From Armatimonadota bacterium (GTDB taxonomy: Bacteria > Armatimonadota > Fimbriimonadia > Fimbriimonadales > Fimbriimonadaceae), in assembly GCA_020161505.1 (NCBI GenBank), contig JAIUNY010000028.1, forward strand, positions 1 through 34,343: a stretch of 34,343 bases of DNA, written 5' to 3'. A program made the position numbers and the translations under genes. Shown here piece by piece: positions 5,092 through 20,045 of this stretch (the first letter of the stretch is position 1; every line of letters begins with the position of its first letter). The notes under the pieces are model-generated. The model searched no databases. It had not been told where the DNA came from and worked only from the letters and a program-made list of their open reading frames with translations.

Positions 5092-5967
5092 ATGCCTGAG
5101 ATGCTTCTTGAACCGCGGGCGCTCCGGGTTCTCGAATCCCTGCGCTGGAATCCTCGGCAAGTTCATGCCGGGAGGATTCGCGGTGAGCGTCTCACCCGCC
5201 GAAGTGGCCTCTCGATTGATTTTCGTGATTACCGGGACTATGTCGAAGGAGACGACCTCCGGCACCTCGACTGGAATGTCTTTGCGCGGCTCGATCATCC
5301 CATTGTCAAAACCTATCAGGATGAGGAAGACCTTGCCGTGCATATCCTGGTGGATTGCAGCCCAAGCATGGATTTCGGATCGCCGAACAAGCACGCCTTG
5401 GCGAAGCAAATTGCCTTTGCAGCAGGGATGATCGGGATGCTCGGCGGGGATGCGGTGATCGGGCATGTGCTCGGTCGGCGCCTTCCTCCGCCTCCCCCAA
5501 TGCGTGGGCGAGCAGGGGTTCTGTCATGGGATCGCTGGTGTCAGGCGATTGCGCCGAATGGTCACGAGATTTTGGGGCAGTCGCTTGCTCGATTTGTCTC
5601 GGGCACGCACCGGGTTGGCTTGGTCATCCTCATCACCGATGGCCTGGATCCCGGCTTTGCCGAGCTTCTTCGCAAGATCTCCGCGCGGGGGCATGAACTG
5701 TTCGTCCTCCACGTGCTGGCTCCTCAAGAGGTGGAGCCCGATCTGGAAGGGGATTTGAGGCTGGTTGATTCCGAGTCGGAGGCGACGGTGGAGATCACAG
5801 CGAGCCAAAGTGCGATCAACGAGTACAAGGCGAATCTGAAAGCGCATTGTGAACTCGCGGCATACACCGTTCAGCATTACGGCGGGCGGTATGCACGGGT
5901 GACTTCGGAACAAAGTGTCGAGGAAATCGTGCGCGAGATTTGGCAGAGGGAGGCGTGGGTTCGATGA
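5092..5967 (+). CDS. DUF58 domain-containing protein (vWA-like)
   Basis: A soluble 291-residue protein of the DUF58 family, the usual partner of MoxR ATPases. The family signature is present near residues 43-72 (DFRDYRDYVEGDDLRHLDWN). A degenerate von Willebrand A fold follows, with the MIDAS-type string D88-C-S-P-S92 in LVDCSPSM and a second acidic position in LITDGLDPG. The gene lies 13 bases after moxR, and its TGA stop overlaps the next start as ATGA (5964-5967), indicating coupled translation. Family knowledge suggests that MoxR acts on DUF58/vWA proteins to assemble or regulate a periplasmic or membrane activity. Nothing here identifies the substrate. Confidence 0.92.
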   Translation: MPEMLLEPRALRVLESLRWNPRQVHAGRIRGERLTRRSGLSIDFRDYRDYVEGDDLRHLDWNVFARLDHPIVKTYQDEEDLAVHILVDCSPSMDFGSPNKHALAKQIAFAAGMIGMLGGDAVIGHVLGRRLPPPPPMRGRAGVLSWDRWCQAIAPNGHEILGQSLARFVSGTHRVGLVILITDGLDPGFAELLRKISARGHELFVLHVLAPQEVEPDLEGDLRLVDSESEATVEITASQSAINEYKANLKAHCELAAYTVQHYGGRYARVTSEQSVEEIVREIWQREAWVR

Positions 5968-7790
5968 CTTTCCAGGATCCTCGGATGTTCCTGTGGGCAT
6001 TGCCGATTGGTGGCCTCATCGTGCTGATGTATCTCATGCGGATGCGTCGGCGCGACCTCAAGGTGTCGGCGACGTTTCTGTGGCCCGAACGTCAGGACGA
6101 GATTCGCGCGAACCACTTCTTCCAAAAGCTGAAGTTCAACTGGTTGCTCGTGCTGCAACTTCTCGCTTTGGCCCTGCTTTTGGGAGGACTCGCGCGGTGG
6201 CAAGTGCGCCAAACCGGGCTCACCGGCGGCACGACGGTCGTCGTGATTGATGCCAGCGCGAGTATGGGGGCCACCGATGTTCAGCCTTCACGATTTGAAG
6301 AAGCGCGAAAGCGCTTGGGTTCGCTCGTCGATGGGATGCAGGGGGGGGATCGGTTGGCGGTCATCGAAGCCGGGCCGATCCCACGAGTCATTGCGCCGTT
6401 GAGCAATGATTCCGCGAAGGTCAAATCGGCTCTCAGCGGGCTTGGTCAAACCGACGCGGAGGCGGATGTCGGCGAGGCTTTGCGGCTCGCCACCGCTCTC
6501 GTGGGACAGGCTGAAGGGGCGAAGATCATTCTCCTCAGCGATGGGGTTTTTGATCCGATCGAAAACTTCAGTCCGGGTAAGTCGGAGCTGCTGTACGAGC
6601 AAATCGGGAAGGAGGGCAAGAACCTCGCAGTTACCGCGATGGGCACGACCGATGATCCGAAGGGGCGCCAGCTCTTTGTTGGGGTGAAGAACACGGGAGG
6701 GACCGAGCTTCCCGCGACGATCACGATTTCGGCGGACAAGAAAGCGATTTTCTCCGTTCAGACCTCTCTGAAGCCGGGGGCCAGCTGGGGCCGAACGGTT
6801 CGAGTTCCCGCCGGGGCAGAATGGCTGACCGGTGAGATTAAGTCTCGGGATCAGCTTGCGGCGGATAACTCCATGACCATCCCGGCGAACCCGGGCAAAT
6901 CAATGCGGGTGCTGCTGATCAGCCGAGGAAACATCTTTTTGGAGAGGGCACTGGCGCTCGATTCCCGCGTGACTTTGGATCGTGCAGCGGTGGTTCCAGA
7001 GGGTGAAAAGCGCGGATCCAACGGAGCGAGCAAGTACGATTTGGTCGTCTTTGATGGCCTGACCGAAGTGCCGGTGAAGGCGCGGAGCATCCTCACCTTC
7101 GGAGCGGCTGGGACGCCCAGTCCGGTGACGAAAGAGGGCAGGCTGAGCAAGCCGACTTTCTTGGACGCGAATGCCCATCCTCTGCTTGCCGGAGTCGACT
7201 TTGGATCAGTTTATGTGGAATCCGGCGAGAAAGTCGCTCCGCGTGGCTCGGGTCAAGTGATCGCGGAGGCGAAGGAGGGCCCGCTGGTCGTGGTCTCGGA
7301 GGGCGCGCAGCGGCAAGTCTATGTCGCGTTCAATCCGGTGGATTCTGATTTTCCCCTGAGCATCGGGTTCCCGATCTTCGTGGCGAACGTGCTGGAGTTT
7401 CTCGGTGGTACTGATGCCGCTTCGACTCTCGCGGTGCGTACCGGGCAGGTCCTTTCGATCCCCGCGCCGAGCGAGACTCCTCTCCCAGTGACTTTGCCCG
7501 ACGGAAAGGTTCAGGAAGTCCCCGCGACGGCGGGTCGATATGTGATCCGGGCCTTTACGGTGCCCGGGCAATACAAATGGGGGAGCGGAGATTCGCAGAA
7601 GTTTGTTCAAGCAAACTTGCGCAGTGAACGAGAATCGGCGATCACGCCGGTCTCCACGGTTGAGGTCTCCGGGAATCAGGTGGCGGCGAACCAGAAGCTG
7701 GATCGCTTTGCCGATTTGTGGAAGCCGCTGGCATTGTTCGTCCTTGCGATCCTTGCTCTGGAGTGGTGGGTGTATGCCAGGAGGTCGTAA
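5964..7790 (+). CDS. BatA-like vWA domain membrane protein
   Basis: A 608-residue inner-membrane protein. The N-terminus carries the BatA-type (aerotolerance regulator N-terminal) region, with a helix at about 8-25 (MFLWALPIGGLIVLMYLM), a short basic loop ending FLWPERQDE, and a second helix at about 57-75 (NWLLVLQLLALALLLGGLA). Next comes a vWA domain with MIDAS motif DASAS in VVVIDASASMG and a later acidic loop, LLSDGVFD. The remaining C-terminal half is a beta-rich region, ending in a final transmembrane helix LALFVLAILALEWWVYA with the short tail RRS. I choose ATG 5964, which overlaps the upstream stop as ATGA and has AGGGAGG about 11 bases upstream; the in-frame TTG at 5940 would add eight residues inside the DUF58 gene. 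A three-base gap separates it from the next gene. Confidence 0.9.
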   Translation: MTFQDPRMFLWALPIGGLIVLMYLMRMRRRDLKVSATFLWPERQDEIRANHFFQKLKFNWLLVLQLLALALLLGGLARWQVRQTGLTGGTTVVVIDASASMGATDVQPSRFEEARKRLGSLVDGMQGGDRLAVIEAGPIPRVIAPLSNDSAKVKSALSGLGQTDAEADVGEALRLATALVGQAEGAKIILLSDGVFDPIENFSPGKSELLYEQIGKEGKNLAVTAMGTTDDPKGRQLFVGVKNTGGTELPATITISADKKAIFSVQTSLKPGASWGRTVRVPAGAEWLTGEIKSRDQLAADNSMTIPANPGKSMRVLLISRGNIFLERALALDSRVTLDRAAVVPEGEKRGSNGASKYDLVVFDGLTEVPVKARSILTFGAAGTPSPVTKEGRLSKPTFLDANAHPLLAGVDFGSVYVESGEKVAPRGSGQVIAEAKEGPLVVVSEGAQRQVYVAFNPVDSDFPLSIGFPIFVANVLEFLGGTDAASTLAVRTGQVLSIPAPSETPLPVTLPDGKVQEVPATAGRYVIRAFTVPGQYKWGSGDSQKFVQANLRSERESAITPVSTVEVSGNQVAANQKLDRFADLWKPLALFVLAILALEWWVYARRS

Positions 7791-7793
7791 GGC

Positions 7794-10613
7794 ATGATCC
7801 GCTTCTTGGAGCCAGCCTACGGGCTCCTGTTTCTCCCTCTGATTGCCGGGCTTCTCTTTTCGTGGCGGCATGTGCATGGCATCACAAAGGGGCGCAAGAG
7901 GATTGCTTTCTTCTTGCGTGGATTGCTCGCGAGCATGGTGATTCTTGCTCTCATGTCGCCTCAGGCGCTTCAGCCGAATCAAGGGACGGCGACTCTCTTT
8001 CTGGTGGATGGATCGGACAGTGTGCCTGAGTCGGAGAGGAAGCGAGCCATTCAATTTGTGAATGATGCCATGGCCAATCTTGGAAAAGATGACCAGGCGG
8101 GGGTGGTCGTTTTTGGTTCTCAAGCGGCAGTGGAGACGGCAGCCGGGGGCAAGCGACGATTCACGAGGATCGAGGCCAAAGTGGATCCGAGTGCCACCAA
8201 TTTGGCTTCTGCGATTCGGGTAGCTTCGGCGAGCTTCCCTGACGGAAAGGGGCGCCGGATTGTCATTCTCAGCGACGGGAACGAAACCACCGGGGATGCC
8301 TTGCAGGCGGCGGAAGTTGCAGCCTCCGATGGGATTGTTGTCGATACCGTCTCGCTGGGACAGAAGAGGAGCCGGGCGGAAGCTTCGGTGGTCGAGCTCC
8401 AGGCTCCAAATGAGCAGAACGCGGATGAACCGTTCGACTTGAGGCTCGTTTTCGAATCAAGTGTCGCTCAGAAAGGAGTGCTTGCGATTGATCGCGATGG
8501 TCAGGTCGTGGACCGGATTCCGGTTGATCTTCCTGCCGGGAGGTCGTCGCTTGTGGTTTCGCAGAAGCTCGACAAGCCAGGTTTCTTTCGATACCGAGCC
8601 TACTTGCAAGTGCCAGAGGATTCGGACAACCGGAACAACCTTGGGGCGGCTTTTGTCGCGGTTCGTGGGAAACCGCGGGTCTTGGTGCTGCAGGGCAATA
8701 CGAGCAAGCGCGAACTGGTCGCCGCGTTGCAGAGTCAGGGGATTGATGTCACGCTGGGAGGGGCATCGAGTTTTCCTTCCCGCCCAGAGGATATTCAGGC
8801 TTACGACTCGATTGTCCTGAATGACTTCGACGCTTCTCTGACCACGCCTCGGCAGATGGAGATTGTCCGGTCGGCGGTGCGCGATAGCGGCGTTGGGCTC
8901 GTGATGATCGGAGGGGAAGGCAGCTTTCTCCCGGGCGGCTGGTACGGAACTCCCGTCGCTGAAGCTTTGCCGGTTGACCTGAACATCCGTCAGCGCAAGA
9001 CGTTCCCAAGCACGAGCGTGGCGATCATCATCGATACGAGCGGCAGCATGAGCATGGTCGAGGATGGGGCGACGAAGCTCCAGCTCGCTGCGAATGCGGC
9101 GGTGATGACCGCCAAACTGCTCTCGCCGCGAGACCGTTTGGCTGTCGCGGGCAGCGGGAGTTCGATTGAGCTGGTGAGGCCATTCGGCGAGCTGGAGGAT
9201 GTTGATTCAGCCGTGATGCAGATCCGGCGGCTCGCGCCCGGCGGAGGCGGAATCTTCGCCCAACCAAGCGTGGCCTACGCCAAGAATCTGCTCGACAAAG
9301 AGCAGACGAAGGTTCGGCACTTTATCTTGCTCGCCGATGGATCGGACTGCGATCAGCACGGGATCAGTTTGGCCCTGGCTAACCAGATGCTGAGTAGCAA
9401 GATCACGGTTTCGGCGGTGGCGATCGGCGATGGCAAGGATGTGCCGTTCTTGAGGTCGCTGGCGGCGGCAGGAGGCGGACGTTTCTACCTCGCCGATCGC
9501 GCGAGCAAGTTGCCGCAGATCTTCACCCAAGACGTCGCGATCATGTCGCGATCGGCGATTGAAGAGGGGGCGTTTTTGCCGAAGCTCTTCGGTGGCGAAC
9601 CGGCGTTGCGCGGAATCACCGGCACACCTGCCTTGACCGCCTACTGCATCTCAGAAGCTCGGCCATTGGCCCGAGTTGGGATGAAAACGCACAAGGATGA
9701 GCCGCTTCTGGCAAGCTGGCAGTATGGATTGGGTCGAAGCATTGCCTTCACGTCGGATGCTCAGAATCGTTGGGCTAAGGAGTGGATTTCGTGGGATGGA
9801 TTTGCTCGGTTTTGGGCTCAGACAATTCGATCGAGCCTTCGGCAAGCGGCGCAGAACGACTACGACATTTCCGTGACTCCCGAAGGTGGACGGGGGAGAA
9901 TCGAACTGTCCGCGAAGGATCGGGCCGGGAATCCTCTCGCATCACCCGAAGTCGAAGTCCGGGTTTCCTCGCCGGATGGAAAGGCGCAGAACTTGGTTCT
10001 GGCTCAAGAAGCTCCGGGGGTGTTCTCTGGAAGTTTTGATGCCACGGAATTGGGCAGCTACATCGTGGGAGTGGTGGAGCCGGGGAAGAGCGGCGAGACC
10101 AGGGTCGCGACGTCCGGATTCACCGTGCCTTACCCGCCGGAGTATCGCTTTGCTCGCACGAACTCGAGTCTGCTCAATGGGATCACTTCGTTGACCGGTG
10201 GCAAGGAACTCGCAGGTCCACAGGATGCGCTTCGATCGGTCAGGGAGCCCGGAAAGACCATCTCCGATCTCTGGCCCTGGCTGCTGGGGATCGCTCTCGC
10301 CTTGCTTCCGCTCGATATTGCGCTTCGTCGATTGATGATTCCTCTGCCGGCATTCCTCAGCCGATTCTCGCGGGCCGAGGAGAGTCTCCGACGTGAGACG
10401 AAGGCGTCCCCGAGCGAGCCAAGGCCCGTCGTCTCGCTTCGACCGAAGGCTCCGGCGAAGGAGAGTGCGCCCGTGTCCGAAAGCAAGCCAGAGAAGGGTT
10501 CAGCGGCGCCAGCCGTCGCGCCGAAGGTCGAGGGTTCGGTTGGTTCCCGGCTCTTGGCGGCGAAGAAGCAACGAGAGGATTCGGAGGGTGGCGACCCTCC
10601 CGCGAAAAGCTGA
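7794..10613 (+). CDS. Membrane protein with two vWA domains and an intervening GATase-1-like domain
   Basis: A 939-residue protein and the last gene of the MoxR operon. Two N-terminal helices (about residues 7-22 and 40-58) are followed by a first vWA domain with MIDAS string D72-G-S-D-S and IVILSDGNET. A linker of beta-sandwich type follows. A Rossmann-like region at about 285-400 (RVLVLQGNTSKRELVAAL ... GVGLVMIGGEGSFLPGGW) resembles the class I glutamine amidotransferase-like fold seen in large vWA membrane proteins. A second, canonical vWA domain begins with D414-T-S-G-S and includes FILLADGSD. An Ig-like stretch precedes the C-terminal helix (about 824-842, LWPWLLGIALALLPLDIALR). The last 80 residues are a polar Ala/Pro/Lys/Glu-rich cytoplasmic tail. 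Such proteins are often annotated only as VWA domain-containing; the function is unproven. Confidence 0.9.
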   Translation: MIRFLEPAYGLLFLPLIAGLLFSWRHVHGITKGRKRIAFFLRGLLASMVILALMSPQALQPNQGTATLFLVDGSDSVPESERKRAIQFVNDAMANLGKDDQAGVVVFGSQAAVETAAGGKRRFTRIEAKVDPSATNLASAIRVASASFPDGKGRRIVILSDGNETTGDALQAAEVAASDGIVVDTVSLGQKRSRAEASVVELQAPNEQNADEPFDLRLVFESSVAQKGVLAIDRDGQVVDRIPVDLPAGRSSLVVSQKLDKPGFFRYRAYLQVPEDSDNRNNLGAAFVAVRGKPRVLVLQGNTSKRELVAALQSQGIDVTLGGASSFPSRPEDIQAYDSIVLNDFDASLTTPRQMEIVRSAVRDSGVGLVMIGGEGSFLPGGWYGTPVAEALPVDLNIRQRKTFPSTSVAIIIDTSGSMSMVEDGATKLQLAANAAVMTAKLLSPRDRLAVAGSGSSIELVRPFGELEDVDSAVMQIRRLAPGGGGIFAQPSVAYAKNLLDKEQTKVRHFILLADGSDCDQHGISLALANQMLSSKITVSAVAIGDGKDVPFLRSLAAAGGGRFYLADRASKLPQIFTQDVAIMSRSAIEEGAFLPKLFGGEPALRGITGTPALTAYCISEARPLARVGMKTHKDEPLLASWQYGLGRSIAFTSDAQNRWAKEWISWDGFARFWAQTIRSSLRQAAQNDYDISVTPEGGRGRIELSAKDRAGNPLASPEVEVRVSSPDGKAQNLVLAQEAPGVFSGSFDATELGSYIVGVVEPGKSGETRVATSGFTVPYPPEYRFARTNSSLLNGITSLTGGKELAGPQDALRSVREPGKTISDLWPWLLGIALALLPLDIALRRLMIPLPAFLSRFSRAEESLRRETKASPSEPRPVVSLRPKAPAKESAPVSESKPEKGSAAPAVAPKVEGSVGSRLLAAKKQREDSEGGDPPAKS

Positions 10614-10703: not shown

Positions 10704-12872
10704 ATGCCTCGATCTAAGCCCGACCCCGAAGCGACGCCTCCCGCGAAGAAGGCCTCGACTTCCGCCAAGAAGAAACCGGTTGGTGAGCCTGCTCCATCGG
10801 CTCCGGCGGCGGCCCCGGCTGCGTCGGCCGACATGCTCACTGCACTCATGGCGCAGATGCAGCTTCTGGTGTCCGAGGTCTCGACGCTGAAGGCACAAGT
10901 CGCTCAGGTTCCGGCGGAGCCTCAAACGATTCAGGTTCAGAGTCCCGAAGTGGACGATGGGCCAGGTCCTCTGAAGTTTGCCGTCGAGCAGCCCTTGGTT
11001 CCAGCGAGCTTTGATCCGATCCAGATTCTGGACGCGCCGGATCATGCCGCAGACGATTGGAGCGAAGAGGCTCTCTCAGCTGCGGTGGCCCATGCTTTGG
11101 CCAATCCTGATGAACTTCCCGATGATTGGCACGAGGAAGATCCGGCCGACTACGGCGAGCATCACGACGATGAGATGCCGGAGGGCGTGGATCTGGCGGA
11201 AAAGTACCCCGATCTCTTGAGCGAGATCGAGTCGTTCAACCTGGGAGAGGTGGAGCAGTCTGACGACGTTTTAGAGGCGGTGACGCCCGAAGAAGAGCGA
11301 GATTTGCTCGCAGGGGTAGCGGAAGCTTTTGAACTGGCGGAAGCCGATGAGTTGGCTCAGGCAGCGGAAGCCCCTGTCGAGGTTCCCGCGAGCGAGACCT
11401 CGGCAACGGCGGAGGCGATCCATGCGAAGCCGGACAACACGCCGTTGACGGCAGAAGAAATTGCCGCGCTTGTGGCTCAAGCCAGTGGTGGAGAGTCCGC
11501 GCCTCTTCCTCTGGCAGAAGTCAGTAGCCCGATCGATGTGATCCAGTCGATGCCCGACGATGCTCCCCTGAGGGCGGATGACATTGCCGCACTGGTTGCG
11601 CAGTCTCAAGCTCTTGAAGCAGATGCCTCGGCGCCAATGAACGCGATCCAAGCGATCGAAGACTTGCCGGACGATGCTCCTTTGAGCGCGGACGACATTG
11701 CCGCATTGGTTGCGCAGTCTCAAGCTCTCGAAGCAGACGCTTCGGCACCAGTGAGCGCGATGCAAGCGATCGACAACCTGCCGGATGATGCTCCTTTGAG
11801 CGCGGACGACATCGCAGCTCTGATGGCACAGGCTCAGACGCTGGCGACGCCCTCAGACGAACCTCTTGCCCAGCCGGTCGCCGAGCCGACCGCTTCTCCT
11901 TCCTCTCCGACTTTCTCGGCCGACCCGAACGTAGTGGAGGCAGAGATCGAAGTGGAGAGTTACCAGGAAGACAATTTCGACGATTTGATGCTCGACGAGG
12001 ACGCTTTGGCGGCCTTGGTTCGGCAGAGCATTGCCGCTCAGGGGGAAGAACTGGACGCCCAGGCCGCCGCAGAAGCAGAAGCCTTGGCGGCAGCAGAATC
12101 GAAGTCGGATACCGATTCGATGAACGATGACGAGATCGCCGCGCTTCTCGCGCAAGCGCAGGGATCTGCGCCGGCCCCGGCGACATCGGAATCGGATGAT
12201 CTGAACGACGATGATATTGCCGCGCTGTTTGCTCAAGCGCAGCAGTTGGAGTCCGCCGCGCAGCCGGCGGCGGCGGAGCCCTTGATCTCGGCGGATCAGC
12301 TCAGCGCCTTGCTTGAGGTGCCTGACCCCGAAGATAGTTCCGAGCCGGTGCCGTCGTCCTCGATGGCGATGGATGCTGACGAGCTTGCCAAGTTGCTGGC
12401 CGAGGCCACCGCTTTGGGCTCGGATTTGGGCGCGTCGCCGACGCCAGAGCCCACGGCTGCTCCCGTGGAGGTGGAACCGGTGGTGAGCCAAACTGTGGCA
12501 ACACCCCAGGCCGCTGCAACACCGGTTGCGAAGAAGGTTGTCAGTTCCGGCGAGCAGGAACTGGGGGCCGTGAAATCGGTGCCCGCGCACCTCGCCGTTC
12601 GAGCACTGGCCCTGCCGATGCGGTTTGCCGAAGGGAAACTTGTCTGCAAGGTCGCTGAGCCGGTGGATCGGGCGGCGGTGGATCGGATATCGAAAGCGAC
12701 GGGATTTGGCATCGTTATCGAACCTGCGCCGATTGCCGAGGTGATCCAGGGGTTGCGTCAGGCTTATGCCGAAGTTCAGGACGCCCATGCACGATTTGCG
12801 GTGATGACCGGCGCGGTTGCCAAGCCGAGCGTGATGGACGTGGTGAAGTCGATTTGCAACAAGGTCGCATGA
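10704..12872 (+). CDS. Acidic EIDAL-like-repeat protein with C-terminal GspE/MshE N-terminal-like domain
   Basis: A 722-residue protein I do not recognise as a named family. Residues 1-40 are Lys/Ala/Pro-rich and probably disordered; a short helix follows (MLTALMAQMQLLVSEVSTLK). The rest of the first 600 residues is very acidic and carries about nine copies of a short helix motif of the form (S/T/N)-x-(D/E)-(D/E)-(I/L)-A-A-L-x-A-Q. They centre near residues 253, 294, 332, 370, 430, 478, 505, 533 and 561. The motif resembles the EIDAL motif at the N-terminus of FliM and FliY. Residues about 616-705 (VPAHLAVRALALPMRF, then LVCKVAEPVDRAAVD and ATGF) match the second half of the GspE/MshE N-terminal fold. 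There is no membrane helix and no signal peptide. The stop is 19 bases before a FlhG-like ATPase gene. No Shine-Dalgarno is clear at ATG 10704. Confidence 0.85.
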   Translation: MPRSKPDPEATPPAKKASTSAKKKPVGEPAPSAPAAAPAASADMLTALMAQMQLLVSEVSTLKAQVAQVPAEPQTIQVQSPEVDDGPGPLKFAVEQPLVPASFDPIQILDAPDHAADDWSEEALSAAVAHALANPDELPDDWHEEDPADYGEHHDDEMPEGVDLAEKYPDLLSEIESFNLGEVEQSDDVLEAVTPEEERDLLAGVAEAFELAEADELAQAAEAPVEVPASETSATAEAIHAKPDNTPLTAEEIAALVAQASGGESAPLPLAEVSSPIDVIQSMPDDAPLRADDIAALVAQSQALEADASAPMNAIQAIEDLPDDAPLSADDIAALVAQSQALEADASAPVSAMQAIDNLPDDAPLSADDIAALMAQAQTLATPSDEPLAQPVAEPTASPSSPTFSADPNVVEAEIEVESYQEDNFDDLMLDEDALAALVRQSIAAQGEELDAQAAAEAEALAAAESKSDTDSMNDDEIAALLAQAQGSAPAPATSESDDLNDDDIAALFAQAQQLESAAQPAAAEPLISADQLSALLEVPDPEDSSEPVPSSSMAMDADELAKLLAEATALGSDLGASPTPEPTAAPVEVEPVVSQTVATPQAAATPVAKKVVSSGEQELGAVKSVPAHLAVRALALPMRFAEGKLVCKVAEPVDRAAVDRISKATGFGIVIEPAPIAEVIQGLRQAYAEVQDAHARFAVMTGAVAKPSVMDVVKSICNKVA
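11523..11843 (+). repeat. In-frame tandem repeat, 114-base (38-residue) period
   Basis: Within the acidic repeat gene, the codons for DDAPLxADDIAALxAQ recur at 11556, 11670 and 11784, exactly 114 bases apart, and the linker SAPxxAxQAIxxLP repeats with them. A diverged earlier unit (NTPLTAEEIAALVAQA, from 11436) is 120-123 bases upstream. Later copies of the core motif are spaced irregularly. This is a coding repeat that preserves frame, not a mobile element. Confidence 0.88.
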
Positions 12873-12891
12873 GCTGGCCTGGAGACATGAA

Positions 12892-13716
12892 ATGAATTGG
12901 ATCAGTGTGACGAGCGGGAAAGGCGGAACGGGGAAGACCGTTTTGGCAGCCTCATTGGCCTGCGTTTTGGCCGAGCATCAGAAAAAGGTTTTGCTCTTTG
13001 ATGGTGATCTGGGCTTGGCGAACGCTGACGTCGTGATGGGGGTCGAGATCGGCTGTACTTTGGGGCACGTGATTCGGGATGGACGCGAGCTTCGGGATGC
13101 CGTGACTCCTTCGCGCCATGGCGTGGATGTGATCTCGGGAGGATCCGGTTGGCTGGAGCTTGAGAATCTAGATCTTGGTGCCATGACTCACTTGGTGACG
13201 CAGCTCCAGACCCTTGCCAAGAATTACGACTTTGTGGTGGTGGATACCTCACCTGGTTGGGGCGGTCGGGTGATGCCGTTTTTGCTTCCCGCGACTCACA
13301 TGGTTTTGGTCACGACGCCAGATGCCACAAGCCTGATGGATGCCTATGCGTTGCTCAAAGCTGTTTGGGTTCAAAACGAATCGTTGGCGGCGGGACTGGT
13401 GGTCAATATGGCGGATTCGGAGTTGCACGGCGACCAGATCGCCAAGCAGGTGCAGGCGGTGGTGGCTCAGTTCTTGAGCCAGCCGTTGCCGCACATTGGC
13501 ACGGTTCGTCGTGATGGCAAGGTTGTCTCGGCGACTCGTCAACGCACTCCGTTCGTGAAAATGTTTGCGTCGAGCAAGGTCACCAGCGATCTCGAATCGG
13601 TGGCTGAGTTCTTCCTTGACCCCAGCGAAGTCGAGGCGGAACCGGAGTCGATGCTGGAGAAGCTGAAGCTGGTCTTCAGCAAGAAGTCGGACGAGGACGA
13701 AGCCGAGGCGGCATAA
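12892..13716 (+). CDS. FlhG/MinD-like P-loop ATPase
   Basis: A 274-residue ATPase of the MinD/ParA superfamily, closest in style to FlhG (FleN/YlxH). The deviant Walker A is SGKGGTGKT (residues 8-16, with the signature Lys at 10). The switch I/Walker A-prime region is FDGDLGLANADVVMG, a string characteristic of FlhG and MinD. The second switch reads VVVDTSPGWGG rather than the usual D-T-x-A-G. After the ATPase fold, residues 254-264 (MLEKLKLVFSKK) look like a MinD-type amphipathic membrane-targeting helix, followed by an acidic tail (SDEDEAEAA). GGAG at 12881 lies seven bases before ATG 12892. Family members position or count polar machines such as flagella or pili. Lying 19 bases after the EIDAL-like repeat protein, it probably has that protein as a partner. 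No flagellar gene is in the window, so I give no gene symbol. Confidence 0.88.
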   Translation: MNWISVTSGKGGTGKTVLAASLACVLAEHQKKVLLFDGDLGLANADVVMGVEIGCTLGHVIRDGRELRDAVTPSRHGVDVISGGSGWLELENLDLGAMTHLVTQLQTLAKNYDFVVVDTSPGWGGRVMPFLLPATHMVLVTTPDATSLMDAYALLKAVWVQNESLAAGLVVNMADSELHGDQIAKQVQAVVAQFLSQPLPHIGTVRRDGKVVSATRQRTPFVKMFASSKVTSDLESVAEFFLDPSEVEAEPESMLEKLKLVFSKKSDEDEAEAA

Positions 13717-15707: not shown

Positions 15708-18089
15708 ATGAAAATGTTTCGAAGAAGTGTCGGAGCACGGCTGATCGCCGCCATGTTGGGAATTGGTCTTGTGCCTCTTCTCGCCGTGAGTTGGATGTCG
15801 TCGCAGGCTCTCAGTCATACCGCCCAAGAGCGAACCGGTGTCCTTGAGGCATCGGCCCAGACGGTGATGAGCCGAATCGAACGTAATCTGTTCGAACGCT
15901 ATGGAGATGTCCAAGCGTTCGGGCTCAACCAGGGGATTTACAACAAAGAAGACTGGTACGTGAGGGGGTCGAAGAACAAGGTCACCCAGATCATGAACCA
16001 GTACATGTCGACCTACACTCCGATCTACGAGCTGATGGTGCTTGTGGATACCAAGGGCAAGGTCGCCGCTGTCTCGAGCAATACCTGGGAAGGGAAGCCG
16101 ATCAATACCACGCCGCTATACAAGCAGAACTTTGCGGATACGGATTGGTTCAAGAACTCCATGGCGGGCACGTTTACGGCCAGCGAAGCCCTCACGGGAA
16201 CGTGGGTCGATGACGCAGCTTTCGATCCCATGATCAGCGAAATCTTCGGTGGCAAGGGTGCCTACATTGGCTACAGTGCGCCGGTGAAGGATGCGAGCGG
16301 AAACATCATTGGCGTTTGGCGCAACTATGCCCGCGTCGATGCGGTGGACTCGATCCTGGAGGAAGCCTACAACGAATTGAAATCGGGTGGCCTGACTCAG
16401 GCAACCATGAAGCTGCTGTCCAACGATGGAACCTTCCTTGCTGGGTACGGTACCGAAACGGGGACTAACCCAGCAGAGATCGAAACGGGCGTTTTGGAAG
16501 AAAACTACGCCGAAGTCAAAGGATCGCTGGCGGCTACGGCTATCACGAAGGACTCTGGCTCCGGCGAGAGCACAGGCGCCAAGCCGATGGTGGGCGGTTA
16601 CTTCAAGAGTAAAGGCGCTCTTGGCTATCCCGGCTTAGGATGGGTGAGCCTCGTGAGCGTGGATCGCGGTGAGTTCTATGCCGACCGCGATGCCGTCCTT
16701 GGGAAGCAGACGGGAGTCGCCTTCTTCGCGACGATCATCATTGCGGGTCTTGCTCTGCTGATTAGCCGAGCGATCACGCGACCGATCACGACGATGGCGA
16801 ACAGCCTCCACGGCGTGTCCACGGGCAGCCTCGATGTGCAACTGGCTCATCAGTCTGAAGACGAACTCGGCAAGCTGGCCGACAGCATTCGGTATCTGAT
16901 TGGCAAGCTTCAATCGCACGCCGCTTGGACCAAGGTGATAGCGAGTGGCGATCTTCGCCATCAGGCCCATGCAGAAGCTCCGGACGACGAGATCGGTCGA
17001 TCGCTGGAAAGCATCGTGACGAACCTGTCGACGGCCCTCTCGAGCATCCGCGACAACAGCGTGGAAGTTCAAGATATGGCGGCGGCTCTGAATGATGCTG
17101 CAGGCAGCATCGCGGGCGCAAGCCAAAGCGTGGCGGAGCGGGCGACCGAGATCAACGCTTCGGCGGAGCATACTTCCTTGTCGATTCACGAGGTTGTCGA
17201 TGCGAACGAGCAGCAAGCTGAGTCCTTGAACCAGATCGTTCTGCATGTGCGCAATGTCGCCGAAGCGGTGGGCGAGGTCGCGCAGAAGATCAACCACGTC
17301 CAATCGGAAACGGTGGTGGCAAGCCAAAAGGCAACGCAAAGTGGCCAATCCGTGGATCAGACCCTGAAGGGTATCGCGCAGATCCAAGAAACCACCTCAG
17401 TGGTGGGGGCGAAGTTGGGCGATCTTCATCAGAAGTCTGAACAGATCGACTCGATTATCCAGACGATCAGTGAGATTGCCGAGCAGACCAACCTGTTGGC
17501 TCTGAACGCCGCCATCGAAGCCGCCCGAGCCGGAGAGCACGGAAAGGGCTTCGCCGTCGTTGCGGAGGAAGTTCGCAAGTTGGCCGAGCGCTGCGCAGTG
17601 GCGACCCAAGATATCGCGGGTCTCGTCGGGCAGATCCGAGGGCTGGTTGGCGAATCCACGAACGCGATGCAAGCTGCCGATAAGGCGGTGAACTTCGGGG
17701 TGGAATCGAGTCAAGCGACGAAGGTTTCTCTCGAAGAGATCGTTGAACTCGTTCTTGAACTGGAGAAGCCGGTGCAGGAAGTCGCCAAGACGGCGGACGA
17801 AGTGAGCAAGCTCGCTTCGCAAATGGAACTCGCCGTTGAGGATGCGGCTCGAACCACGGAAACGACCGTGGAAAGCTCGCGACAAATCCAAGTTGCTGTG
17901 AACCGAGTCACCGAGGACATCAGCGATGTGAGCGCGGCTGCCGAAGAGCAGATGGCCTCGACGGAAGAACTGAACGCTTCGGCTTCGGATCTCACCAATG
18001 TCGCGAATCGCCTCTATGAGCTCGTTGCTCAATTCCAGCTCGATGATAGTCCGGTCGAAAACCAGGGCGATCAGCGACGCGCAGCATGA
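15708..18089 (+). CDS. Methyl-accepting chemotaxis protein
   Basis: A 793-residue transmembrane chemoreceptor. Transmembrane helix 1 is at about 11-30 ([18 protein letters not shown]). The extracytoplasmic part (about 31-335) has the long helix plus paired PAS-like layout of a dCache sensor, including [19 protein letters not shown] and [20 protein letters not shown]. Transmembrane helix 2 is at about 337-356 ([19 protein letters not shown]). A HAMP domain follows, starting [20 protein letters not shown]. The signalling hairpin tip is highly conserved, with [20 protein letters not shown] at about 588-607 and [15 protein letters not shown] next. There is no C-terminal CheR-binding pentapeptide; the tail is polar. 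Ligand unknown. It may feed a chemotaxis-like array that controls pili instead of flagella, which is only inference. The coding end is separated from glpX by a strong hairpin. Confidence 0.95.
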
Positions 18090-19283: not shown

Positions 19284-20045
19284 ATGAAAAAAGTACTTTT
19301 GCTCGCACTCGTTGCGGCTGTAGCTCCGGCGGCTCTCGCCCAAAACTTTGTCAGCAACTTCGACGCGCTGAACGATGGTGCCTTGGATACCCAAGCCTCC
19401 GGTGGGCCGACAGCTTGGTTCGGTGGCGCGGGCACGAACGTTGTCAGCACGGGCCCGGTTCAAGGAGCCAAGGCCGTTGAATCCAGCTACTCGCTCGCCG
19501 CAGGTAGCAGCAACTCGCACGCCTGGGTTGATCTCTACACCAGCGGCACGGGCATCGCGATTCCTGGCGGGATCGTAGCTTCGGTCGACGTTTGGGCCGA
19601 CTCGGCTCGAGCCAACGATGCTGCTGGACTCGCTCTCTGGGCAAACGGCGGCGGAAACCTGCATGGCATCCTCTCCGTGTCGGGCGACGGTCGAGTGTTT
19701 GGTCGGAACGGTGATGGCACTCCGGGAATTACGCAGTTTGCTGGTGCGACGGCTAACGTCAACGCGTGGAACACGATCGCCCTGGAAGTGACCCAGGTCA
19801 ACGCAACGACTCTTCGCACGGGCTACCGTCTGAACGGGACCCTGCTCGCTGAGTTCCACACCCGCACGGTTGCTGGTAGCAACTTGGTTTCGGACTTCGA
19901 CCTCTTCAGCCTGAACCTCGGCACCGCGACCAGCACGGTCGTCAGCCGATACGACAACTACTCCGTTCAAGCTGTGCCGGAGCCGGCCACGATGACCCTG
20001 CTTGCCCTCGGTGCCCTGGCCGCTCGCCGACGCCGCCGCAAGTAA
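19284..20045 (+). CDS. PEP-CTERM sorting-domain secreted protein
   Basis: A 253-residue exported protein. The signal peptide is MKKVLLLALVAAVAPAALA followed by QNF, with a likely Ala-X-Ala-type cleavage. The mature part is Gly/Ala/Asn-rich and reads as a beta-sandwich of the concanavalin/laminin-like kind (WVDLYTSGTGIAIPGGIVAS, NAWNTIALEVTQVNATTLR). The C-terminus is a textbook PEP-CTERM: VPEPATMTLLALGALAARRR plus basic residues. This tail is recognised by an exosortase, which is not encoded here, and anchors or releases the protein at the cell surface, usually together with exopolysaccharide. The gene stands alone, closed by a strong intrinsic terminator 30 bases downstream. AAGG at 19279-19282 lies only one base before the ATG, so any Shine-Dalgarno is poorly spaced. 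The specific role is unknown. Confidence 0.9.
   Translation: MKKVLLLALVAAVAPAALAQNFVSNFDALNDGALDTQASGGPTAWFGGAGTNVVSTGPVQGAKAVESSYSLAAGSSNSHAWVDLYTSGTGIAIPGGIVASVDVWADSARANDAAGLALWANGGGNLHGILSVSGDGRVFGRNGDGTPGITQFAGATANVNAWNTIALEVTQVNATTLRTGYRLNGTLLAEFHTRTVAGSNLVSDFDLFSLNLGTATSTVVSRYDNYSVQAVPEPATMTLLALGALAARRRRRK

Follow-up and report, generated by a model that had tools for sequence, protein, structure and literature searches.

The 34,343 nt of Armatimonadota bacterium contig JAIUNY010000028.1 analysed here (GCA_020161505.1, forward strand; hereafter the window) contain two adjacent genes, the first encoding a 722-aa acidic protein with EIDAL-like repeats (the adaptor, or hub) and the second an ATPase of the FlhG/FleN family. 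Together they represent one form of a two-gene module, an MshEN-domain adaptor followed by a FlhG-like ATPase, which is widespread in this class and apparently undescribed. The adaptor family is wider than the EIDAL-like repeats, which mark one variant of it and do not define it. A variant of the FlhG system, here an MshEN adaptor/FlhG-like module bearing FliM-like repeats, describes the pair better than a polar hub for pili does.

Conservation of the gene pair

A class sample of 113 genomes was searched with the hub, giving matches in 36, and 30 loci were fetched. Three of these were PilB or other MshEN proteins. At each of the other 27 the next gene after the adaptor encodes a MinD-type ATPase; one is frameshifted and a few are very divergent. 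From the ATPase side, 40 loci were sampled from a profile search, and an MshEN gene was located directly upstream on the same strand in 33, mostly within 40 nt. The first-pass annotation, made from the window sequence, had called for a search for the gene pair, and the pair is indeed conserved far beyond its own genome. In a phylum search with the short adaptor all strong matches fell in this class, while the matches listed from outside it were weaker and mostly PilB-sized frames.

Four types of adaptor were distinguished: (a) the long EIDAL-bearing hub with half an MshEN domain at its C-terminus, (b) a full MshEN joined to a protein-kinase-like domain, (c) a short MshEN protein of about 200 aa, and (d) an MshEN fused to the ATPase itself. 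The genome containing the window has types (a), in the window, (c), at C1:47103-48504, and (d), on contig C14; such fusions were also seen in 12 or more relatives. In the ATPase tree the sequences group according to the type of adaptor, with 11 label changes versus 55 when labels are shuffled. Type (b) and most type (c) adaptors end in a motif resembling [DE]R-x-x-LL-x-[AS]-[LI], for example DRDQLLSSL or DRRDLLAAI, and several keep perfect cyclic diguanylate (c-di-GMP) motifs.

Two apparent exceptions did not hold. The ATPase on C1, at first taken to be adaptor-less, has a 225-aa MshEN gene immediately before it, as a profile search revealed, and the fusions were thought to be without any docking motif, yet their linker holds a short D/E-L-x-x-A-V motif. 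Among the fusions (L084, the own-genome copy, and L217-L232) the own-genome copy keeps the P-loop SGKGGVGKT. In six of the seven genus-relative fusions read, the P-loop lysine has been lost (GAKGGVGTT, GASGGVGAT, GTAGGVGAT, GAAGGLGAT), which suggests that these may be pseudo-ATPases.

The EIDAL-like repeats of the adaptor

No transmembrane-like segment was found in the 722-aa adaptor (maximum KD19 1.2). Residues 101-612 include 116 acidic residues versus 9 basic, and this acidic middle is probably unstructured. The first-pass annotation had counted about nine copies of the motif; the repeats themselves are confirmed, the number is slightly too high. The strict form [DE][DE]I[AD][AS]L[LVMF] occurs six times in the first 612 residues (shuffled mean 0.0014), a relaxed form seven times (shuffled mean 0.012, never more than 2 in any of 20,000 shuffles) and a further-relaxed pattern eight times. 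Three copies, starting at residues 292, 330 and 368, are located in a tandem array (Table 1), so that part of the motif count is due to recent duplication of the DNA; the remaining motifs are scattered outside the array.

Similarity to the FliM EIDAL motif had also been claimed, and it holds up on a scoring matrix built from FliM motifs. True FliMs score 31-38 on this matrix, the window motifs 20-23, and hub relatives approach the FliM range (MSEDEIQALL 30.5, LSEDEIEALF 31.4, LSEDEITALL 29.8). When 135,566 open reading frame (ORF) residues of the genome were scanned in the same way FliM and the hub stood out, with four single matches elsewhere. A score of 20 or more is also attained, one or more times, by about 8% of hub shuffles. 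On this matrix the significance therefore lies in the motif count and not in any single motif of the window. The hub and the N-terminal motif of FliM/FliY share the core LSx[DE][DE]IxAL[LVMF], the true FliM of the same genome (C23:6728-7294) having the N-terminus EILSQAEIESLLSSL. The hub differs in carrying the motif in many copies within a disordered linker and in lacking a FliM or SpoA domain; the FliM core domain PF02154 found no match in the adaptor. A PDB search with one hub repeat as the query gave no match.

Homologues generally lacking the repeats, or lying apart from FlhG-like genes, would have spoken against the proposed association. Hub homologues instead retain the motif, in varying copy number, beside the ATPase gene; in most of them the counts are far above those of composition-matched shuffles, and L007 and L012 have re-expanded the repeats independently. 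The protein at L017 (G056:C153), 948 aa long, appears to hold several degenerate MshEN halves with acidic linkers between them.

Table 1. Positions of the gene pair, its motifs and neighbouring features in the window
Feature	Position	Strand	Remarks
VWA-domain genes (two)	5940-10613		BatA-like and glutamine-amidotransferase-like
Adaptor (hub) gene, 722 aa	10704..12872	+	acidic: 137 D+E, 31 K+R
EIDAL-like motif 1	11442..11489	+	PLTAEEIAALVAQASG
114-bp tandem repeat array	11551..11812	+	holds motifs 2, 3 and most of motif 4
Motif 2	11565-11612	+	in tandem array
Motif 3	11679-11726	+	in tandem array
Motif 4	11793-11840	+	mostly in tandem array
EIDAL-like motif 5	12117..12164	+	SMNDDEIAALLAQAQG
EIDAL-like motif 6	12198..12245	+	DLNDDDIAALFAQAQQ
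Motif 7, weaker	12282..12329	+	LISADQLSALLEVPDP
Motif 8, weaker	12366..12413	+	AMDADELAKLLAEATA
One hub repeat unit			PLSADDIAALVAQSQAL
Second half of MshEN/GspE-N domain	12570..12773	+	PF05157; c-di-GMP-binding N-terminal half missing
FlhG/FleN-family ATPase, 274 aa	12892..13716	+	P-loop SGKGGTGKT; ends in -AA
ATPase C-terminal helix			SMLEKLKLVFSKKS; resembles membrane-targeting sequence
ATPase C-terminal -AA	13711-13716		
Chemoreceptor gene	15708-18089		
Protein with PEP-CTERM sorting signal	19284-20045		

The C-terminal half-MshEN domain

The C-terminus had been likened to the N-terminal part of GspE/MshE, which is correct for the second half of that domain only. PF05157 (MshEN) matches adaptor residues 623-690 with 25.6 bits against a cut-off of 23.1 (E 1.2e-5, profile positions 18-86). 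An AlphaFold model of the last 127 residues, predicted from the single sequence, is of moderate quality, with a core pLDDT (predicted local distance difference test) of about 75. Among the structures closest to it are PilB-N, GspE-N, XpsE-N, PilF-GSPII and MshE, in each case the second half, with VIA Z scores of 2.9-4.8 (3.6-4.8 for PilB-N and GspE-N) that are weak alone, and it aligns to PilB 94-157 and MshE 89-145. Foldseek with the same single-sequence model returned no match below E 0.001, GspE/PilB N-domains heading the list. The MshEN assignment therefore rests on the sequence match.

The c-di-GMP motif of MshEN consists of two 24-residue units of the form RLGxx(L/V/I)2xxG... (PMC5013675). 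Both are absent from the window adaptor, the motif belonging to the missing first half, which sets it apart from the MshEN/GspE-N domains of type II secretion system (T2SS) and type IV pilus (T4P) ATPases that its profile match and model otherwise resemble. Sister adaptors, L018 and L026 among them, have the motifs intact. In these two loci and in L183-L192 a full c-di-GMP-type MshEN joined to a protein-kinase-like domain stands upstream of the FlhG-like ATPase, an unusual architecture for a second-messenger receptor.

Like HubP/FimV, the hub is a large acidic protein proposed to collect positioning ATPases. It is unlike them in having no LysM or FimV domain match and no transmembrane-like segment: in a Pfam scan of the adaptor MshEN was the sole match, with neither LysM nor the FimV C-terminal domain detected.

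The FlhG/FleN-family ATPase

Both ORFs are present as first reported, with a 19-nt gap between them, and the assignment of the second as FlhG-like is well founded. In a PDB profile search FleN (5j1j, 226 bits) and Geobacillus FlhG (213 bits) scored well above the best, archaeal MinD (140 bits); the model of the ATPase (pLDDT 88) has TM (template modelling) scores of 0.83-0.87 to FleN/FlhG, and against the MinD equivalog TIGR01968 it reaches 90 bits, below the cut-off of 212.9. The ATPase is nevertheless not a canonical FlhG. It lacks the N-terminal DQAxxLR helix, the FlhF activator, as M1 lies eight residues before the P-loop GKGG, whereas a canonical FlhG of Armatimonadia (L097) has MNDQAAGLR. 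When placed in a tree together with 29 canonical FlhGs, the ATPase falls outside the FlhG group, whose support is 96/82; the outgroups were canonical FlhG and MinD sequences from a generic P-loop pattern scan, among the matches listed. Fold, family, P-loop and two of the three FliY-binding residues are held in common with FlhG/FleN/YlxH, and the C-terminal helix resembles a membrane-targeting sequence, while the missing DQAxxLR helix, the absence of FlhF from the genome, the MshEN adaptor upstream, the position outside the FlhG clade and the -AA end are not. The tail helix is conserved among the ATPases as S[MFI]L.[RK][LIM]KS.F.K and has a modest hydrophobic moment.

The -AA C-terminus is found in 13 of 14 hub-type ATPases, in 0 of 29 canonical FlhGs and in 6 of 98 ORFs of the same genome. 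ClpX can recognise a terminal AA as a degron, and our guess is that these ends may be ClpX-type degrons permitting regulated turnover. Type (a) and (b) adaptors also nearly always end in A or S, often as [KR]-x-A, the tails being otherwise variable.

Geobacillus FlhG cannot bind the first 36 residues of FliY without its residues K177, R207 and F215, and R207E abolishes FliY binding (PMC12327844; the middle residue is printed there both as R277 and as R207, and the spacing in 4rz2 fits 207). Pocket positions were aligned through 4rz2, F or Y at 215 being counted as kept. The window ATPase has K156 for K177 and F194 for F215, with Q186 in place of R207. K177 and F215 are kept in 11/14 and 12/14 hub-type ATPases respectively, and both are kept in 23/23 short-type and 13/13 kinase-type ATPases and in all canonical FlhGs sampled. 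Among the fusions a K at 177 is seen in 3/15 and an aromatic residue at 215 in 1/15, and eight MinDs have neither. Judged from the aligned residues, this pattern fits the docking of a separate partner, which may be the adaptor or FliM; since the fusions form one clade, loss of the pocket may be a single event. A precedent for an adaptor on this surface is GpsB of Bacillus subtilis, which binds FlhG at a site overlapping that of FliY (PMC12327844). Unlike the hub, GpsB is a cell-cycle regulator bound via its C-terminal domain and has no repeat motifs.

Co-occurrence with flagellar genes

FliM was found in 93 of the 113 class genomes, and 20 further FliMs that were read carry versions of [ED]xL[ST][QP]xEI[ED]xLL. 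FlhF over the TIGR03499 cut-off was found neither in the genome of the window nor in any genome of families f1 and f2, the 18 FlhF-positive genomes all belonging to f3 or f5. Most f3 genomes have FlhF without a strong match to the FlhG-like ATPase, the reverse of f1 and f2, and f5 (G112) has both.

It had been asked whether the pair follows flagellar or pilus genes. On the flagellar side the answer is positive: the FlhG-like ATPase (>100 bits) is present in 47 of 79 FliM-positive and in 0 of 9 FliM-negative genomes (Fisher 6e-4, 88 good genomes, ignoring kinship). MshEN proteins occur in 113/113 genomes of the class, so co-occurrence cannot probe a link to pili.

Possible role of the module

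The leading, if tentative, explanation is that the adaptor acts as a multivalent mimic of FliM, holding FlhG-like ATPases in a form of flagellar control that is independent of FlhF. From the observations above we infer the following steps. The acidic middle of the adaptor would present about eight copies of the FliM N-terminal helix, and these repeats would occupy the FliM/FliY site that surrounds K156 and F194 on the ATPase encoded next door, which would let the adaptor gather or titrate the ATPase. By analogy with FlhG and MinD, the ATPase may alternate between a monomer and an ATP-bound, membrane-attached dimer. The pair would then control how much ATPase is free for FliM and might in this manner set the number or place of flagella without FlhF. 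For the MshEN half a separate docking partner is supposed, which may be a GspL/PilM-like protein or some other one in the cytoplasm.

Several observations weigh against this explanation. The co-occurrence with FliM stems mainly from one genus (g6), and the FliM-negative genomes are mostly of one genus, representing few events; many FliM-positive genomes are without the ATPase, and the window operon is located away from flagellar genes. At the position of R207 the window ATPase has Q and four close relatives have E, a residue that no sampled true FlhG has there; this speaks against binding of an identical kind. The pocket is mostly retained by six adaptor-less 'orphan' ATPases as well (5/6 at each position), and FliM itself may thus be what it is kept for. 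K177 is apparently lacking from the divergent ATPase that accompanies the motif-rich hub L012, and the fusions retain a short related motif in the linker.

For much of the class it is possible, though less likely than not, that MshEN-derived adaptors, ancestrally c-di-GMP receptors, control FlhG-family ATPases in place of FlhF, and that in one lineage the c-di-GMP half has been lost and replaced by a multivalent FliM-mimic array. If this were true, it would constitute an FlhF-independent system for flagellar placement or number, tied in its other forms to second-messenger signalling. A recent review names flagellar placement and counting outside the FlhF/FlhG/HubP systems as an open question (PMC12826062). 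The module offers a concrete, genetically linked candidate with three natural architectures, one of them a covalent fusion. It makes two ideas testable: that adaptors in general dock at the site where FlhG binds FliM, as GpsB already suggests, and that c-di-GMP-type domains can be wired to that site.

A module for pili or secretion, in which the half-MshEN docks on the ATPase complex of a T4P or T2SS, the FlhG-like ATPase sets the place of this machine and flagella are not involved, appears unlikely. The C-terminal domain of the adaptor is half of a GspE/PilB N-domain, GspE-N has been solved with GspL/EpsL (PDB 2bh1 and 4pht, by title), and six or more ATPases of the PilB/GspE type, matching T2SSE over nearly its full length, are encoded in the genome. 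However, the FlhG-like ATPase is missing from all nine good FliM-negative genomes despite the MshEN proteins there, which suits a role in flagella better than one in pili. Fimbriimonas ginsengisoli has pili and is non-motile (PMC4072686), and the genome presumed to be of this species (G015) lacks both FliM and the FlhG-like ATPase.

It is improbable that the repeats bind CheY-type response regulators, the hub being a multivalent CheY~P buffer or a chemosensory scaffold. The EIDAL motif of FliM does bind CheY (PMC6946799) and is the CheY~P site, and a chemoreceptor gene is found close by in the window, but that gene is outside the neighbourhood conserved in a related genome (G089, L080), and the constant neighbour of the hub is the ATPase rather than a response regulator.

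Little credence is likewise given to the motifs being by-products of an acidic, Ala-rich disordered linker growing by tandem duplication, with conserved function confined to the MshEN half and the ATPase. Such growth would account for motifs 2-4 lying in a tandem array, for the variable copy number and for the lack of motifs in related kinase- and short-type adaptors. It accounts poorly for motif counts above those of shuffles in most homologues, and for non-tandem copies and independent arrays that converge on LSxDEIxALL with near FliM-grade scores. Transcription control of the FleN-FleQ kind, with the adaptor displacing a FleQ/FlrA-type activator from a shared ATPase site, is highly improbable: FleN is the closest solved structure to the ATPase and FlrA and FliM use one site on FlhG (PMC11236974), but no FleQ-like gene was seen nearby, no search aimed at FleQ having been made.

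Neighbouring genes

The two VWA-domain genes that precede the pair (Table 1) are found in the same order in genus member G089. Because this synteny does not extend beyond the genus to G037, a member of a different one, the VWA genes were not counted as parts of the module. Downstream of the pair, the protein with a PEP-CTERM sorting signal suggests an exosortase system in this genome.

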